Shown piece by piece: positions 7,736 through 32,587 of a stretch of 64,000 nucleotides of DNA (positions are counted from its first letter, which is position 1; each line of letters begins with the position of its first letter). The notes below the pieces were generated by a model. That model was not told where the DNA came from. It did no database searches and worked only from the letters and a program-made list of their open reading frames with translations. The DNA comes from Scatolibacter rhodanostii (GTDB taxonomy: Bacteria > Bacillota > Clostridia > Oscillospirales > Acutalibacteraceae): contig NZ_FZLO01000004.1 in the NCBI RefSeq assembly GCF_900197595.1, positions 1 through 64,000 of the forward strand. Direction: 5' to 3'. The position numbers and the translations under genes were made by a program.

Positions 7736-8686
7736 TTAGGCCGTTCCTCTTTGAATCACTTTTTCCAAGACTTCACGAGTGGGCAATCCCTCATTGTCGC
7801 TTTTATGAGAAATTTGGATAGCACCAAACACGTTTCCTCTGAAAGCCGCTTCTTTTAAAGATAATCCTTCTGCTAGTGCACTGATAACGCCTGCGGCAAA
7901 ACCATCGCCTGCGCCCACCGTATCCACAATTTTCTCTGCTGGAAATTCTCCCGAATAACCGCTTGCTCCATTTTGTTCCGAATAATAGGCACCGTCTTTG
8001 CCAAGCTTGACGATAACATAGCGAACCCCTTTTGCATGATAATAATCAGCAATATCTTCTGCCGAATCTTTTCCGGTAAGAATAGCGCCTTCTTTTAAAC
8101 CCGGAAGAATCAGATTAGCTTGTTCAGCCAATTCATTCAAGGTGGCTATCATCTTCTTTTCGCTTTCCCAAAGTTGCGGACGTAAATTGGGGTCAAATGA
8201 AATCGTAATATTTAATGCCAAAGCACGGGCAATTAATCTTTTTACGGCAAACAATGCCGATTCAGAAACAGCAGGCATAATGCCGGTAACATGCAGCCAA
8301 GTGCATCCGCTCAAGTCCAAATGGGTAACATCTTCTGCCGAAATCGAAGAGGCTGCTGAATTTTTACGGTAATATTGGATTTTAGGATCACCCTTTTCCA
8401 CTTTGCCTTTCATCATAAACCCTGTTGATCGGCTTGCATCCCTAAAGACTAAGTCAGTAGAAATACCATTTTTCTGCATAGCATCTACAATTTTATCGCC
8501 AAAAGAATCTGTACCCAGCTTTGTGCAATACACTGCTTGATGTCCCATTCTGCTAAGGCCTACTGCTACATTGTATTCTGCCCCGGCAATAGCTGAAGTA
8601 AACGTATTGACTTTGCTAAGCTCACCTGGTTCGTTTGCAATAAAGAGTCCCATCGGCTCCCCTAACAGTACAATTTTTCCTGCCAT
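7736..8686 (-). CDS. PfkB-family sugar kinase, 2-keto-3-deoxygluconate kinase-like
   Basis: A 316-residue ribokinase-fold kinase. The GAEYNVAVGLSRMG region near residue 35 binds the sugar, and DTVGAGDGFAAGV near residue 255 is the PfkB signature 2 with the catalytic Asp. The overall pattern, with FDPNLRPQLW near 170, is closest to KdgK-type kinases that phosphorylate 2-keto-3-deoxygluconate; fructokinase is a possible alternative. GGGGGA precedes the ATG. It follows manA by 17 bases, so both belong to one carbohydrate module. No KDPG aldolase gene is in view, so the substrate remains uncertain. Confidence 0.8.
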   Translation of the reverse strand: MAGKIVLLGEPMGLFIANEPGELSKVNTFTSAIAGAEYNVAVGLSRMGHQAVYCTKLGTDSFGDKIVDAMQKNGISTDLVFRDASRSTGFMMKGKVEKGDPKIQYYRKNSAASSISAEDVTHLDLSGCTWLHVTGIMPAVSESALFAVKRLIARALALNITISFDPNLRPQLWESEKKMIATLNELAEQANLILPGLKEGAILTGKDSAEDIADYYHAKGVRYVIVKLGKDGAYYSEQNGASGYSGEFPAEKIVDTVGAGDGFAAGVISALAEGLSLKEAAFRGNVFGAIQISHKSDNEGLPTREVLEKVIQRGTA

Positions 8687-8703
8687 GTTTCATTCCCCCG
8701 CTT

Positions 8704-9660
8704 TTATATCGTTGTCTGAATCCACTCACATTGGCCTTCAATGGTCACGTTACCTTCTCCGGCAGGAATAAACAAGCTATCCCCTTTTTGGAAAGATATT
8801 TTTTCACCTTGGCTGATGATTTCCCCTTTACCCTCTAAAATAACTAAGGATACAAATGTTTCGTCTTTTGCTTCAATGGTTGTCGCTCCATCGCAAGTAT
8901 AATGCTCTGTCGTGAAATATTTACATTCAGCCAAAAGCTTATGCTTGGCATCCCCTGATTGATGTAATGTGTCATCCCACTGATTCGCTTGTGAGGGTGA
9001 TAGTTTAGAAACGGCCAATGCTTTTTCAATATGCAGTTCTCTTAAATTTCCTTGTGCATCTCGTCTGGCATAGTCATATACACGATATGTCATATTAGAG
9101 TTTTGCTGAATTTCACAAATCAAGATACCAGCGCCAATCGCATGAATGGTTCCTGATTCTATGAAAAACACATCTCCTTTTTTAACCGGCACTTTGTTCA
9201 GAACTTCTGTGACCGTATTATTGTTAATGCGGCGGCAAAAATCCTCTTTAGATATCTCTTGATTTACACCAAAATAAAGGTACGCACCTTCCTCGCAGTC
9301 CATGACATACCACATTTCAGTTTTGCCGTATTCGCCTTCGATTTCTAATGCAAACTCATCACTGGGATGAACTTGAATAGAAAGCGCTTGTTTGGCATCA
9401 ATAAATTTAATAAGAACAGGAAATTTTGCAAAAGCCTCGGCTCTTGTACCCAAAACCTGATTTCCACATTTTTCAATATACTGTGAAAATGTGAGCCCGT
9501 CAAACTCGCCCCCGCTTACAACACTTTCACCATCCGGGTGAGCAGAAAGCTCCCATGTTTCGGCTAATGGTGTCATATCGCTTACCTTTCCATATTGTTC
9601 TTTTAGTCTTGTGCCACCCCAAAGATAATCTTTGCAAGCCGGTTTTAATTTTTGAATCAT
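8704..9660 (-). CDS. manA: Mannose-6-phosphate isomerase, class I
   Basis: Interconverts mannose 6-phosphate and fructose 6-phosphate. The 318-residue length matches the short Firmicutes ManA. Cupin-fold zinc ligands are visible in QVHPSDEFA and in the EMWYVMD region, with a further His in ESGTIHAIGAG near residue 173. The start KPACKDYLWGG is typical of the family. It is followed closely by the PfkB kinase and preceded by the PBP gene 64 bases away. It may feed mannose-containing envelope polymers or allow mannose use; the sequence does not decide. Confidence 0.93.
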   Translation of the reverse strand: MIQKLKPACKDYLWGGTRLKEQYGKVSDMTPLAETWELSAHPDGESVVSGGEFDGLTFSQYIEKCGNQVLGTRAEAFAKFPVLIKFIDAKQALSIQVHPSDEFALEIEGEYGKTEMWYVMDCEEGAYLYFGVNQEISKEDFCRRINNNTVTEVLNKVPVKKGDVFFIESGTIHAIGAGILICEIQQNSNMTYRVYDYARRDAQGNLRELHIEKALAVSKLSPSQANQWDDTLHQSGDAKHKLLAECKYFTTEHYTCDGATTIEAKDETFVSLVILEGKGEIISQGEKISFQKGDSLFIPAGEGNVTIEGQCEWIQTTI

Positions 9661-27304: not shown

Positions 27305-28456
27305 ATGAGTAGAGTAGATTTTTTAAATCCAAGCGATTGGCAAGAATATGAAAGTTACGTCTCCGCCCACAAGAATGCTTGTTTTATGCAGTCTCTACAA
27401 TGGGCAGCCGTAAAGCCGGGTTGGGAAAAAGAGGCGATTTTGACAAGAAACGATGACGGAAAAATCATAGCAGCCGCCTTAATTCTTATTAAAAAAGTTC
27501 CACTTCTTGGGACAAGTCTATTTTATCTTCCTCACGGACCGGTTTGGGATTTTGCTGACCAATCCGCTTTTTCTGCTATCATGCAAGAAATCACTCTTCT
27601 CGCTAAAGAATACAAGACCTATCAGTGCCTTATTGACCCTTTAATTTTTGAAGAAAACAAAGAAGTTGTCCACTATCTAAAGACTTGTGGATTTCATTTT
27701 AAACCGGATGCAAAGGAATTGAGAACTGTTCAGCCCAGAAACAACTATATGCTCTTTTTAGAGGGAAGAAGCAAGGAAGAAATTTTTGCCTCCTTTCATT
27801 CCAAATGGCGCTATAATATTCGTTTAGCTGGTAAAAAAGGTGTTGAATGCCGTGTCTGCGGCAAAGAAGCCTTGGGCGACTTCTGTTGCTTAATGAAAGA
27901 AACTGGCCGACGAGATGGTTTTGCCGTCCGAGGAAGAATATATTTTGAAAGAATGCTTGACAATCTTGGTGAACATTGCCGACTTTATATGTGTTATTAC
28001 AATGGTATCGCTCTTTCAGGTGCTATCACCACACAATATGCAGGAAAAACTTGCTATGTATATGGTGCTTCTTCCAATGAATATCGCAATTTAATGCCCA
28101 ACTATCTGATGCAGTGGGAAATGATTTGCTGGGCAATCGAGAATAATTGCGACATTTATGACTTTCAGGGAATTCCTTTTTATCAGGATGAAAAACACCC
28201 TAATTATGGTGTTTACCGCTTTAAAAAAGGATTTAATGGAAAAGTGATGACCTATGCCGGTGAATTTCACCGAACTTATAGACCAATATTATCAGCCGCG
28301 GTAAGCCTTGGCATTCAACTAAAATGGCTAAAGGCCGCTGCCCGTCGCCACTGGTTGGTATCCACACGAAACAAGAAAAGGAACAGCTTAGAAGCTGTTC
28401 CTACTGAAAGCACACAAGAACAAACTCTGTTGTCTGAGCATCGTATGCAAAATTAA
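27305..28456 (+). CDS. FemAB/FemX-type peptidoglycan peptidyltransferase
   Basis: A 383-residue protein of the Fem family, which adds amino acids from aminoacyl-tRNA to the lipid II stem peptide or interpeptide bridge. The two GNAT-like halves are visible: residues 1-150 with WAAVKPGW and LPHGPVWDF, and 150-350 with FHSKWRYNIRLAGKKGV and the closing YDFQGIPFYQDEKHPNYGVYR stretch split around residue 300. GAGGAG precedes the ATG. Amino-acid specificity cannot be read. The last 35 residues are polar and poorly conserved, and contain a perfect DNA hairpin. A tRNA operon lies just upstream, which may be chance. Confidence 0.9.
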   Translation: MSRVDFLNPSDWQEYESYVSAHKNACFMQSLQWAAVKPGWEKEAILTRNDDGKIIAAALILIKKVPLLGTSLFYLPHGPVWDFADQSAFSAIMQEITLLAKEYKTYQCLIDPLIFEENKEVVHYLKTCGFHFKPDAKELRTVQPRNNYMLFLEGRSKEEIFASFHSKWRYNIRLAGKKGVECRVCGKEALGDFCCLMKETGRRDGFAVRGRIYFERMLDNLGEHCRLYMCYYNGIALSGAITTQYAGKTCYVYGASSNEYRNLMPNYLMQWEMICWAIENNCDIYDFQGIPFYQDEKHPNYGVYRFKKGFNGKVMTYAGEFHRTYRPILSAAVSLGIQLKWLKAAARRHWLVSTRNKKRNSLEAVPTESTQEQTLLSEHRMQN

Positions 28457-28580
28457 AAAGGCGTGACTATTTTTCTTTCCTCTATGTATTGTATTGCCGA
28501 AAAAGCACTACTCCACCGCTTTTATTGCTTTTTCTTCCTTAGAAAATACGCTATGATTATTTTACAATTTGCTCAAACCT

Positions 28581-29519
28581 TTATACTTTCATCTGACTTT
28601 CCACTTGCAATTTGGTGGGTAGAGAACTCTGCGCTCCTTCCGTTTGCACTGTTATAGCAGCTGCCGTATTGGCGTAGCAAATTGATGAGCGCACCGTGTC
28701 TCTTGTCACAATCCCTTCCATTAATAAATGAGCGGCAAACGCACCGATAAAAGAATCACCGGCGGCTGTCGTATCTTTCGCTTCGACCCTTTTAGACGGA
28801 ATCAGCTCATGATAGTTTTCTGTCACCAACAATGCGCCCTTCTCTCCCATGGTAACAATCATATACTTTATCTTTTTAGCTTGAATCAGTTCTTGGCAAG
28901 CAATCACCAAATCCTCAATCTGCTCAAATTTTCTTTCGCAAATACCGCTAATTTCTGTTTCATTTGGAATTAAAATGTCTGTGCAACTCCATAATTTATC
29001 TGAAATAGAGAGTATTGGCGCCGGATTAAATATAGTAACGCAATTTGGATTCTCGCTTTTAGCTTTTGTGAATGCTTCTATGGTTGCCTCTTGCGGCACT
29101 TCAAATTGTGACAACACAATCTCGGTTTCTTGATCTATTAATTTCAAGTTAGCTATATCTTCTTTTTGAATCGCGTGATTGGCACCGGAAATGACCGTGA
29201 TTTCATTTTCACCGGATTGGCTGACGTTAATAAACGCTCTGCCTGTCGGCTCTGTTTTTGATATGTCAACTTCCAATTGATGAAAAGGATATTGACTTAG
29301 TGTATCCTGATAGGCAGTACCATAAGCATCCTCACCAACTTTTCCATATAAGGCAACCTTTGCTCCCAGTTTAACAGCAGCAATGGCTTGGTTTGCCCCT
29401 TTTCCGCCAAAAAAAGTATTAAACTGATTAGCAAATATGGTTTCGCCTTTTCGGGGTAAATGCTCTACACTGGCCACCATATCAATATTTAAACTGGCTA
29501 TGACAAACATAGATTTCAT
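28581..29519 (-). CDS. rbsK: Ribokinase
   Basis: A 312-residue PfkB-family kinase that makes ribose 5-phosphate. The start SLNIDMVASVEHLPRKGET, the glycine-rich GGKGANQAIAA near residue 40 and the catalytic loop DTTAAGDSFIGAF near residue 250 are typical of RbsK. ATG 29519 has GAGGAGG six bases upstream; an earlier in-frame ATG at 29534 overlaps the previous stop and lacks a site. It follows the ADP-ribosylglycohydrolase-family gene by 11 bases, so ribose released by that enzyme is a likely substrate. No rbs transporter or RbsR is present. Confidence 0.93.
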   Translation of the reverse strand: MKSMFVIASLNIDMVASVEHLPRKGETIFANQFNTFFGGKGANQAIAAVKLGAKVALYGKVGEDAYGTAYQDTLSQYPFHQLEVDISKTEPTGRAFINVSQSGENEITVISGANHAIQKEDIANLKLIDQETEIVLSQFEVPQEATIEAFTKAKSENPNCVTIFNPAPILSISDKLWSCTDILIPNETEISGICERKFEQIEDLVIACQELIQAKKIKYMIVTMGEKGALLVTENYHELIPSKRVEAKDTTAAGDSFIGAFAAHLLMEGIVTRDTVRSSICYANTAAAITVQTEGAQSSLPTKLQVESQMKV

Positions 29520-29530
29520 ATCTATCCTCC

Positions 29531-31666
29531 TCATTCAACCATAGATTCAATTTTGTATTTGGTAAACACCGTTTTTGAAGCTCCGCTGTTTCCAAAGCCA
29601 ATACAGCCATTCTGATAGGGAGAATCATCTGTGACAGAAATTAACTCTTGATTAAGAACGCAAACCCTTATAGTATCCTGCTGCACGTTAACTTGTATTT
29701 CAATCTCTTCGTTATGCTTCCATCCATATTCACATTCGGCAAGGGTCACCAATTTGCCATCTACGTTTTTAGATAGTGCTAATCGATTCCCTTCTTTTAA
29801 ACTAACCTCGTAGGAACGCACAGAACCTTGAACGCGGAACAGAACCTTATGTATGTCGCCTATTTCAGGAATCAGCCCAACGGTTAACGTGAAATCTTTC
29901 CAGTCATAGCTGCCCGTATAAACTTCTCCTCGGCTAGCCGAACTGACCTGCAAGCCATTCTCTACTACTTCGGTAAACCCACTGAAAGAAGTGATATGAG
30001 CTGGCATTTGGTGTATTCCATTCCATTTTTCTACAGGCAGCACTGCCAAATTCATCTCATAGTTTGCTATCGGTGTAACAGAAAAATCGTCCATATATAA
30101 AATGATATCTGGTCTCTCGTTGACTGTCGTTGGCGACATGGCTATAATTTTAAATCCAACTTTCTCAACAATTGCATTTTCTGCATAAGGCAATGTGAAT
30201 TCAATTTCCTGCCATGTTCCGGCTGTCAGCACCATTGCGCTTTGTTGCAGATTATAAACTTCACTTTTTATACGGTCTGTCCAGAAAGGAACTAGTTTTA
30301 CTTCTCCTGTACAATTTTTATCAGCATAAAAATAAGCTTTCACTTTATCGCCGGGATAAATAGTGGGCGAAAAATCAGGGTTATATCGGCTGTCGTTAAA
30401 GTCTGACGGCGTATAGTAGCTCTTATGGTAAAGCTCCACTATGCCTCCTCTTTCGATGGAGGGCACAGCAATTTTGCAGGAACGTTTTCCTGTATGTGCT
30501 TTCTCATCTGTGTTGTTCACCGTCGCCCCATACCCTTCAGCGCGCATAGCATGAATGGCTGTCGGAAATTCAAAGTGAAATTGATTTGCTGAATTTTGTT
30601 CGAGTAAAAATCTTAGCTCAGGGTCTATCGGCTCTGGCTTTATTTTTTGCGCAATCTTCAGAGAATCCAGTGCAGCCTGTGAAACAGTTTGAATATTTAA
30701 GCTGCCAATCGCTGATGAAGCACAAATAAAATCATTCACCTGTTTTAGCCATTTTTCTCCGATATGGGAGGCAGAAACAAATGCTCCTAAAATAGCACCC
30801 ACATTGCCGACATTGCAGTCCGTATCCCAACCGCACATATTGCAGATGTTGATTGTATCGTCAAAATCTCCTCTTCCATGAACAAGAGAAAGTACAATCA
30901 CCGCTGCATTGGGGATAATATGACACACCCCTTTATAGTGCTGATAGCCATATTTTTGCTGCACAAAAGCAAAGGTTTTGCGCCAATCATCTTGGTTGCG
31001 TTTTGCCTCTGCCATAACGTCCTGCGCCATAACAGCATATTCGCAGTCACTTGGAATTTCTGCTAAACCGGCAGCTATAATTTCGTCAATGCTCTGTGCT
31101 GTAAAGGCCTTTGCTACACAGGCCGCCACAAAACGTCCGCCATAAATGCCTTCTCCGCCATGCGTGACAGAAGACATTTTACCTGCCAATTCAGCTGCTC
31201 TATGGCTGTCACCGGGACAGACAAAACCCCAGCAATCCGAAAAAATCTGGCCGCCGATCTGCTCTGCTATCGTTTTTCCGTTTAGCTCTATCGAACCTGA
31301 AAGAGGTGCACTTACCCCTTGTTTGAGATTTTCATAGGCGGTATTTTCAGTAGAAATGCCATATCCTCCCCACCAGAAAAAACCATGTCCATCTGACACA
31401 TAGTTTTTTAATGTGAGTGCCATGGTTTGTTCATCTACTTGGCCACTTGCATAATCCAAAAACACTCTTTGGTAAAACAACGGACCATTAATATCATCAT
31501 CTGCACAGAAATTTTTAAAGGTATAGGGATAAGAATTTATCTCCCCAAATACATCTCTAATTTTTTCGTGGGTCCAGCCTTCCACATCTGCTCCATGGAT
31601 AACACCTACAATTTTACCGACCCATCCGCCATAGAGCTTATCCAGATACTTTGCTGTTATTTCCAT
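29531..31666 (-). CDS. ADP-ribosylglycohydrolase-family protein with C-terminal beta-sandwich modules
   Basis: A 711-residue protein. Residues about 1-350 form an ADP-ribosylglycohydrolase (DraG-type) domain: acidic metal site FCADDDINGPL near 55 and the second site GWDTDCNVGNVGA near 290, which together bind two metals. Residues about 365-530 look like a jelly-roll, carbohydrate-binding-like module with the MDDFSVTP end, and 540-711 like a LamG-type sandwich. There is no signal peptide, so it acts in the cytoplasm. ATG 31666 has GGGGGA six bases upstream. It is the first gene of an operon with ribokinase, pointing to an N- or O-linked ribosyl substrate such as a nucleoside or ADP-ribose derivative; the real substrate is unknown. 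Confidence 0.85.
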   Translation of the reverse strand: MEITAKYLDKLYGGWVGKIVGVIHGADVEGWTHEKIRDVFGEINSYPYTFKNFCADDDINGPLFYQRVFLDYASGQVDEQTMALTLKNYVSDGHGFFWWGGYGISTENTAYENLKQGVSAPLSGSIELNGKTIAEQIGGQIFSDCWGFVCPGDSHRAAELAGKMSSVTHGGEGIYGGRFVAACVAKAFTAQSIDEIIAAGLAEIPSDCEYAVMAQDVMAEAKRNQDDWRKTFAFVQQKYGYQHYKGVCHIIPNAAVIVLSLVHGRGDFDDTINICNMCGWDTDCNVGNVGAILGAFVSASHIGEKWLKQVNDFICASSAIGSLNIQTVSQAALDSLKIAQKIKPEPIDPELRFLLEQNSANQFHFEFPTAIHAMRAEGYGATVNNTDEKAHTGKRSCKIAVPSIERGGIVELYHKSYYTPSDFNDSRYNPDFSPTIYPGDKVKAYFYADKNCTGEVKLVPFWTDRIKSEVYNLQQSAMVLTAGTWQEIEFTLPYAENAIVEKVGFKIIAMSPTTVNERPDIILYMDDFSVTPIANYEMNLAVLPVEKWNGIHQMPAHITSFSGFTEVVENGLQVSSASRGEVYTGSYDWKDFTLTVGLIPEIGDIHKVLFRVQGSVRSYEVSLKEGNRLALSKNVDGKLVTLAECEYGWKHNEEIEIQVNVQQDTIRVCVLNQELISVTDDSPYQNGCIGFGNSGASKTVFTKYKIESMVE

Positions 31667-31892
31667 TGTTTTTCCCCCATACATTTAATATTCACTAATT
31701 AATTTTCTTTGCACGCTTTGTTTAGATTCCTTGCTCCCAACAATAAAAGCCCTCTATATGTTTTTGTTCTTTTCTGCTAGCAAACCATTCTAAAAGCTCC
31801 CTCGCAAAGAATTTACCCTTCTACTGTTTAAATCTTGTTATATTACTCTCTTACTAACTAGGTAAATCATCTCCTGACATATTTTCACGATG

Positions 31893-31920
31893 ATTATAAC
31901 ATCTAAAACATGATTGTCAA
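31893..31920 (-). promoter_or_regulatory. Promoter of the glycohydrolase-ribokinase operon
   Basis: On the minus strand TTGACA (31915-31920) and TATAAT (31893-31898) with a 16-base spacer. It leaves a leader of about 220 bases (31667-31886) in which I recognise no riboswitch. Confidence 0.75.
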
Positions 31921-32102
31921 CTATTTTAAATAGAATTCCACTCCTAATATAGTGTAATTTATATCAATTATATAAGTAGAAGTATTTTATTCAGATTAAT
32001 CAGGAAAATATATGCTAATATCAAATTTTCTTTGTTTTATGTAAATTTTGAAATATCTTGCAGGAAAACTCTGAGAAAATATACCTGCCTAATATTAGAT
32101 AC

Positions 32103-32131
32103 TTGTTTCCCTTAAAACCCTGTGGTATAAT
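32103..32131 (+). promoter_or_regulatory. Promoter of the Rrf2 regulator
   Basis: TTGTTT (32103-32108) and TATAAT (32126-32131) with 17 bases between and TGG before the -10 (extended -10). The transcript leader is only about 15 bases. The stretch 31921-32102 is AT-rich and shows nothing else. Confidence 0.65.
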
Positions 32132-32152
32132 AGGTTTTAATGGAGGTGACTT

Positions 32153-32587
32153 ATGAAAATTTCAACAAAAGGCCGCTATGCCTTGCGTGTTATGCTCGAT
32201 CTTGCTATTAATCAAACTGGTGAATTTGTTCCGCTGAAGGATATTTCCCTGCGCCAAGAAATCACTGTAAAATATCTTGAACAAATTATCAGCCCTTTAA
32301 TTAAAGCCGGTTATCTACGCAGCTCGCGTGGTAACGGCGGCGGTTATCGACTAGCCAAAGACCCCAAAGATTATCGTGTTGGTGATATTCTGCGTGTTAC
32401 AGAGGGGGATTTGAGTGTTGTCGCTTGTTTAGACGGAAACGACAACAATTGTTCTCGACAAGAGAATTGCCTGACACTTTCTTTTTGGCAAAACTTTAAT
32501 AAAATTGTACAGGAATATGTAGACAGCGTAACTTTAGAAGATTTATTGCAGCAGTCTGAAAATAGTTATTACGCCGCTTCTATTTAA
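32153..32587 (+). CDS. Rrf2-family regulator with Fe-S cysteine set (IscR-like)
   Basis: A 144-residue winged-helix regulator. The N-terminus MKISTKGRYALR and the recognition region LEQIISPLIKAGYLRSSRG with GGGYRLA wing are Rrf2 hallmarks. Cys92, Cys100 and Cys106 (C-x7-C-x5-C) lie where IscR holds a [2Fe-2S] cluster; CymR, the cysteine regulator of Bacillus, lacks this set. GGAGGTGA precedes the ATG. No isc, suf or cysteine genes are adjacent, so its targets are elsewhere, possibly including its own promoter. Fe-S or redox sensing is inferred from the cysteines. Confidence 0.88.
   Translation: MKISTKGRYALRVMLDLAINQTGEFVPLKDISLRQEITVKYLEQIISPLIKAGYLRSSRGNGGGYRLAKDPKDYRVGDILRVTEGDLSVVACLDGNDNNCSRQENCLTLSFWQNFNKIVQEYVDSVTLEDLLQQSENSYYAASI

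Follow-up and report, generated by a model that had tools for sequence, protein, structure and literature searches.

In a 64,000-nucleotide stretch of the Scatolibacter rhodanostii genome (contig NZ_FZLO01000004.1, positions 1 to 64,000; hereafter the window), a gene for a protein of the ADP-ribosylglycohydrolase (ARH) fold is followed on the minus strand by a gene for a ribokinase-type PfkB kinase, and we favour, without considering it proven, a catabolic role for this pair. The two genes would form a small catabolic unit. Its first protein would be a cytoplasmic furanosidase that has the ARH fold, depends on metal and hydrolytically splits a ribofuranosyl unit, or a closely similar furanose, from the aglycone of a small imported compound; two fused β-sandwich modules would belong to this enzyme as a fixed part that reads the substrate. 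The adjacent ribokinase would phosphorylate the freed ribose to ribose 5-phosphate and thereby feed the pentose phosphate pathway, and in relatives the substrate would be taken up by a carbohydrate-type (CUT1-like) ATP-binding cassette (ABC) transporter encoded just upstream. We favour a catabolic function because the ARH fold and residues E35, H175, D62-D64, D287 and D289 are conserved and because ribokinase, importer and glycosidase genes recur near homologues; the specific form of this proposal, an intracellular furanosidase that releases ribose from an imported glycoside for its ribokinase partner, is one we hold with moderate confidence. If the catabolic reading is true, routine annotation misassigns the biological role of these proteins, and bacteria consume a class of furanosides with an enzyme that has gone unrecognised. 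The small size of the gene pair makes the proposal directly testable in vitro.

An ARH-fold protein with two fused β-sandwich modules

A first-pass annotation of the window had described an ARH-family gene paired with a ribokinase gene, and both are present, the former matching Pfam family PF03747 at E 1.4e-52 and the latter falling near ribokinases. The ARH-type open reading frame (ORF) spans 29531-31684 on the minus strand; the preferred start is the ATG at 31666, which has GGGGG just upstream and yields 711 residues, whereas residue numbering in this text starts with the ATG further upstream, at 31684 (717 residues). PF03747 covers residues 19-308 with 179.6 bits against a curated cut-off of 26.2. 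The sole other Pfam match at E values up to 10 is DUF6250 (residues 652-698, E 0.02, below its cut-off), and no Pfam carbohydrate-binding module (CBM) was matched in this range. Related loci were collected from named genomes; 75 of 79 were counted, the ORF filter having recovered no matching ORF in L072, L074, L078 and L080, although L078 does contain a ribokinase-like ORF. Alignment A1, which was also the input for an AlphaFold2 model, combines the window protein with 61 ORFs drawn from 60 of these 75 loci.

The model comprises three domains and scores highly overall (predicted local distance difference test, pLDDT, 93.9; predicted template modelling score, pTM, 0.93). Superposed with VIA-align, residues 6-349 of the model match the ARH3 structure 6g1q with Z 32.4 and a root-mean-square deviation (rmsd) of 2.9 over 305 residues at 15% identity, which points to an all-helical ARH fold. 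The remaining residues, about 365, are predicted to form two β-sandwich modules, and the earlier guess of a jelly roll followed by a LamG-type domain turned out to be a good one. Residues 352-545, folded alone with AlphaFold2, reach a pLDDT of 91.1 and resemble CBM22 (4xuo; Z 16.0, rmsd 2.3, 146 residues) and the CBM-containing structure 2c26 (Z 15.4; profile match E 5.9e-6). Residues 546-717 superpose closely on CBM66 of Bacillus subtilis levanase (4azz; Z 24.7, rmsd 1.3 Å, 153 residues, 17% identity), accompanied by a weak profile match to CBM66 (E 1.2e-4). Profiles were needed for this assignment, as phmmer with the window domain alone gave no meaningful match and no CBM66. In A1, 45 columns are invariant in the ARH part, 10 in the jelly roll, including F429-x-D431-x-R433-Y434, and 6 in the CBM66-like part. 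The pTM of 0.93 over three domains suggests that the modelled protein is a rigid body rather than an enzyme with a tethered binding module. The architecture of about 700 residues recurs across Bacillota. As stated in the first-pass annotation, no signal peptide is evident in the window protein, nor in 10 other N-termini (one from an incomplete copy), as judged by eye with no predictor run.

A changed metal motif points to a separate ARH group

In the ARH metal motif, the Thr/Ser residues at the first and the last position are metal ligands. Compared to the canonical form [T/S]DDT ... DxD[T/S], the window protein reads E35 ... DDDI ... DTDC and thus carries Asp62 and Cys290 at these two places. 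The acidic residues of both metal motifs, described earlier as kept, are indeed conserved, but the motifs do not have the canonical form. In A1, D62, D63 and D64 are each Asp in 61 of 62 rows with one gap, while H175 and all five residues of D287-T-D-C290-N are invariant in 62 of 62.

We then compared 92 ARH-fold rows, which were found by searches with the window protein, its profile and PF03747, so that their proportions are not natural frequencies (L168 was omitted from this alignment and from the motif scan, and L095 and L102 yielded no ARH-labelled ORF). Residue 290 is Cys in 59 rows, Thr in 27 and Ser in 6. Among the Cys290 rows, position 62 is Asp in 43, Asn in 14, Gln in 1 and a gap in 1, whereas the 33 Thr/Ser290 rows have Thr (23), Ser (9) or Ala (1) there. 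On a tree built without both columns, the Cys290 label needs 2 changes versus 23 in shuffles (six Ser rows uncounted). Because the two residues co-vary and the Cys label needs so few changes, we take the substitutions to go together and to mark a separate 'DxDC' group of ARH-fold sequences. A regular-expression scan found the DxDC motif in all 22 scanned loci from the A1 search, window included, and the Cys motif in none of 29 scanned loci of top PF03747 matches. By profile and fold, the window protein is therefore a PF03747 member; by its metal motif, it is not an ADP-ribosylhydrolase of the ARH/DraG type. DDD or NDD together with DxDC provide two clean sequence markers that separate these bacterial 'ADP-ribosylglycohydrolases' from the name-giving enzymes.

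We propose, tentatively, that the DxDC group constitutes a new glycoside hydrolase (GH) family on the ARH fold, consisting of intracellular furanosidases with an altered metal centre in which Asp or Asn, and Cys, would replace the two Thr/Ser; in the branch of about 700 residues, permanently fused CBM22-like and CBM66-like domains would take part in this active site. If so, many annotated ADP-ribosylglycohydrolases are sugar-catabolic enzymes unrelated to ADP-ribosylation.

Another interpretation is that the window protein is a true ADP-ribosylhydrolase acting on proteins, nucleic acids or NAD derivatives, the ribokinase doing no more than salvaging ribose from further breakdown. PF03747 membership and the high similarity to ARH3 structures are in line with this, as is the retention of two residues at the presumed places of the pyrophosphate-contacting Gly and His, which are conserved in ARH1 and ARH3 (PMC6309922). 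G144 aligns with the Gly of NGAAMR and H175 with the His of THK in Escherichia coli YegU, and these would correspond to the ARH1 positions G130 and H163. The metal motif argues the other way: it reads E ... SDDT ... DSDS in ARH1 and E ... [T/S]DDT ... DTDT in ARH3, and mutating even one Mg-coordinating residue is enough to abolish the activity of either enzyme (PMC6309922), whereas the window protein has both the canonical first and last Thr/Ser changed. Moreover, the S-Y-G-N-G stretch of a short ARH encoded in the same genome is missing at the aligned place, and no ADP-ribosyltransferase family was found among the 16 other window proteins scanned; the recurring neighbours of homologues are carbohydrate importers instead. 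The missing stretch concerns the adenosine-binding residues, in which ARH1 and ARH3 themselves differ (PMC6309922). Taken together, we regard an ADP-ribosylhydrolase function as improbable.

A few relatives depart from the common pattern. One (L110:1067-2194) lacks intact metal motifs, having AQN and DTVTN, and is possibly an inactive or regulatory ARH-fold protein. In L083/L137 and L191, a short ARH-fold protein of 328 residues, with TDD and DADT motifs in L083, is encoded right beside a long DxDC protein, hinting at paired enzymes on related substrates.

Sugar importers, kinases and glycosidases around the homologues

Mapping the neighbourhoods of homologues, as the first-pass annotation had proposed, gave a mixed picture in which the ribokinase gene is neither always nor never adjoining: 29 of the 75 related loci (30 of 76 with the window) have a PfkB/ribokinase-type gene in their same-strand gene run. 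Of ten such kinases tested, nine exceed the cut-off of the ribokinase model TIGR02152. With the window kinase as sole query, 22 of 75 loci gave a match no more than 1.5 kb away at E ≤ 1e-12, compared to 1 of 30 loci of top PF03747 matches (Fisher p 0.003), and 23 of 75 did so at E ≤ 1e-6 compared to 2 of 30 (p 0.010), where the control loci come from a different genome sample and shared ancestry inflates the tests. The control matches are 23-24% identical to the window kinase, whereas 21 of the family matches are at least 31% identical. On the tree, the kinase label requires 14 changes versus 24 in shuffles, according to which the kinase neighbour is clustered yet repeatedly gained or lost.

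An ABC permease label is present in 35 of 76 runs, window included. Among unlabelled neighbours (within two genes, 150-900 residues), we scanned 101 of 104 eligible proteins, skipping L029, which has the same ARH sequence as L028. Permeases account for 22 of the 101, partly in runs already labelled, and the importers beside the family of about 700 residues are mostly of the carbohydrate ABC type. A recurring gene order is solute-binding protein, permease, permease, ARH and ribokinase (for example L059, L065 and L073). Glycosidases of families GH172/DUF2961, GH13, GH31 and GH65 recur near homologues, and GH127 was found in 2 of the 101 scanned neighbours. These carbohydrate importers and ribokinases, together with the window kinase being the sole ribokinase-like PfkB detected in its genome, support the earlier suggestion of a catabolic rather than regulatory function, though they do not prove it.

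The loci nearest the window in the full-length tree, six rows of its own clade and four Paenibacillus rows, stand out in their glycosidases: 8 of 10 have GH13 or GH31 genes in the run, two of them also GH77, compared to GH13 or GH65 in 5 of the other 65 loci, which suggests that the substrate in these nearest loci may also carry α-glucose. In five of the six clade rows, a GH31 gene adjoins the ARH gene; the sixth, L033, is near a contig end. The sister Paenibacillus group has LacI and ribokinase genes, with GH13 in three of four. By contrast, a tree of the ARH domain with one row per group joins the window to the Paenibacillus row instead (support 97), and the two trees thus differ on the nearest kin of the window protein.

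The same glycosidases fit a variant of the catabolic logic in which the furanose is not ribose but a fructofuranosyl-type or other unit on an α-glucoside, the α-glucosidase removing glucose and the PfkB kinase taking the other sugar. The levanase CBM66 of B. subtilis has terminal fructose as a ligand (PMC11002231), and a divergent homologue in a genome of the window's own family (L138:5380-7392) has a CUT1-like importer on one side and a GH32-like gene on the other, with kinase- and aldolase-like genes after the latter (labels by eye). Set against this, the kinases are of the ribokinase type by model, the genome has a separate kinase for which fructokinase is the best model (244 bits, cut-off 450), and the window pair has no adjoining GH13 or GH31 gene. 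We consider a non-ribose furanose a less likely, though serious, alternative to ribose.

In L059, L065, L069 and L073, the ARH and ribokinase genes are preceded upstream by a gene for a fusion of LacI and ribokinase (about 650 residues), whose kinase-like domain is a possible sugar sensor. Four Paenibacillus loci (L011, L016, L048 and L070) contain sulfatase-labelled genes in the run, and the substrates of these members may therefore be sulfated glycans. In L066 (9392-11665), a 757-residue protein matches GH13 and HAD phosphatase seeds and may be a fusion in which a phosphoglucomutase-like domain is joined to a glycosidase or phosphorylase.

The gene is unevenly distributed, which one would expect of an accessory catabolic gene. 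In an even sample of the phylum, 8 of 398 genomes, own included, have a match over at least 550 profile positions. Among 59 genomes from the window's genus or family, one gave a match along most of the length, at 30%.

The kinase and its genomic setting

The window kinase matches solved ribokinases with E values down to 6e-49. Its NID, GGKGANQ and TTAAGDSF segments, which we take to be the ribose-binding and catalytic motifs of ribokinases, align with the solved structures. The genome yielded no other ribokinase-like PfkB; KDG kinase and the fructokinase mentioned above are the best models for its two other full-length sugar kinases, both below cut-off. The PF01156 nucleoside hydrolase was not found in the genome, and the four BPD_transp_2 permeases, their neighbours inspected by eye, belong to LivHM-like or TrpXYZ-like sets. 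Based on these three observations, the ribose for the window kinase may arise inside the cell, other uptake routes being possible. We also searched the genome for a partner transporter. Among 23 permease matches, the best was 34% identical to the permease of a Paenibacillus relative, and none could be tied to the pair; the permease surroundings that were inspected include CUT1-like sets, one beside a GH31 gene, with none linked to the pair.

The lack of PF01156 leaves room for a substitute, and the ARH-fold protein could in principle act in salvage much as a nucleoside hydrolase does, releasing ribose from nucleosides or nicotinamide riboside taken up by the cell. There are precedents for such a gene setting, since a staphylococcal short ADP-ribosylglycohydrolase gene occurs with cytosine/purines-type permease and ribokinase genes (PMC3637587), and the E. 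coli yegTUV genes pair YegU with a putative nucleoside symporter (PMC10819704). However, most importers near the family of about 700 residues are of the carbohydrate ABC type; Nuc_H_symport, found in 2 of the 101 neighbours, is the only nucleoside-type family among the matches listed (25 of 111 families). YegU and the staphylococcal protein are also short, YegU has the canonical Thr, and YegV reaches only 83 bits on the ribokinase model. We therefore think it unlikely that nucleoside salvage is the function of the pair. More broadly, the nucleoside-like or ADP-ribosylated substrate envisaged in the first-pass annotation found no direct support.

Returning to the proposed release of ribose from an imported glycoside, several observations weigh against it. 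The window pair has no transporter gene next to it, and its kinase scores 293.8 bits on TIGR02152, narrowly under the cut-off of 299.65. No kinase lies in the run in 46 of the 75 loci, some runs stopping at contig ends, nor in any of the six rows with which the window groups in the full-length tree (support 99); among the homologues of the even phylum sample, a ribokinase-type gene shares the run in 2 of 7, although two of the seven are at contig ends. Known CBM66 binding is to fructan and xanthan, not to ribose, as far as PMC11002231 describes it. Finally, H175 is kept at the probable place of the pyrophosphate-contacting His of ARH enzymes, which makes a phosphorylated or ADP-ribosyl substrate conceivable.

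Relation to known systems

With ARH1, ARH3 and DraG, the window protein shares the predicted fold (Z about 28 for ARH1 to 32 for ARH3), the Glu and Asp residues of its metal motif and the conserved His; it differs from them in the two metal-motif substitutions and the two domains resembling carbohydrate modules, and its homologues occur in sugar operons. The gene logic of an ARH-fold gene beside a transporter gene and a PfkB-type or ribokinase gene is already in print for yegTUV and for the staphylococcal trio, both with short proteins (PMC10819704, PMC3637587). A profile comparison with hhalign links YegU to the window family (probability 72, E 3e-5). Whereas the window protein is long and modular, YegU has 334 residues, TDDT and DTDT motifs and no modules, and no clear function of yegTUV is known according to PMC10819704. 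The Bacteroides thetaiotaomicron rus locus (BT2803-2809) likewise has ribokinase and nucleoside hydrolase genes for the breakdown of ribose, but uptake there is of the TonB-dependent/SusD outer-membrane type (PMC10434189, PMC12596196).

Regarding the modules, the C-terminal domain shares its predicted fold with levanase CBM66 but, apart from the low identity, belongs to a protein with no evident signal peptide. The jelly roll is similar in fold to CBM22 and CBM44 and is distinguished by the family's invariant F429-x-D-x-R-Y stretch and by having no Pfam CBM match. In the titles and abstract openings that our searches of open-licence PMC papers listed, we found no description of the architecture of about 700 residues that joins an ARH domain to these modules.

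Gene arrangement and upstream region

The two genes run nearly gapless from 31666 to 28581 on the minus strand (Table 1). The kinase ORF spans 28581-29534, and its likely start is the ATG at 29519, preceded by a GGAGG that sits immediately past the stop codon of the ARH-type gene. Because of this placement and because a promoter-like site matching the sigma-70-type consensus at 12 of 12 positions lies about 220 nucleotides upstream, the pair is likely co-transcribed. The site is the sole 12/12 match in 28400-32250, where 11 sites were counted in all, as many as expected by chance (shuffle mean 10.8). The intervening leader was also searched for a riboswitch or other RNA element: a single Rfam match (E 0.89), far below the gathering score, was taken as chance, and the folding of the leader is not unusual (z-score 0.26).

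Table 1. Features of the gene pair and its upstream region in the window.
Feature	Position	Strand	Remarks
Promoter-like site TTGACA-16-TATAAT	31893..31920	-	TG ahead of second hexamer; 12/12 sigma-70-type consensus matches
Leader	31667..31887	-	About 220 nt, between promoter-like site and start codon
Predicted furanosidase gene, ARH fold ('DxDC' group)	29531..31666	-	711 aa from ATG 31666; PF03747
ARH-fold catalytic domain (predicted)	30632..31666	-	Residues ~7-351; VIA-align to ARH3 6g1q
E35, upstream of N-terminal metal motif	31580-31582	-	Glu in 60/62 aligned rows
N-terminal metal motif D62-D63-D64	31493..31501	-	Canonical form [T/S]DD
C-terminal metal motif D287-T-D-C290-N	30812..30826	-	Canonical form DxD[T/S]
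Jelly-roll module, CBM22/CBM44-like (predicted)	30053..30631	-	Residues 352-544; structure and profile matches
CBM66-like concanavalin-type sandwich (predicted)	29534..30052	-	Residues 545-717; structure and profile matches
Ribokinase-type PfkB kinase gene	28581..29519	-	312 aa from ATG 29519; TIGR02152

Elsewhere in the window, at 7736-9660, a KDG-kinase-like PfkB gene lies beside a gene for a ManA-like mannose-6-phosphate isomerase, the latter labelled by eye.

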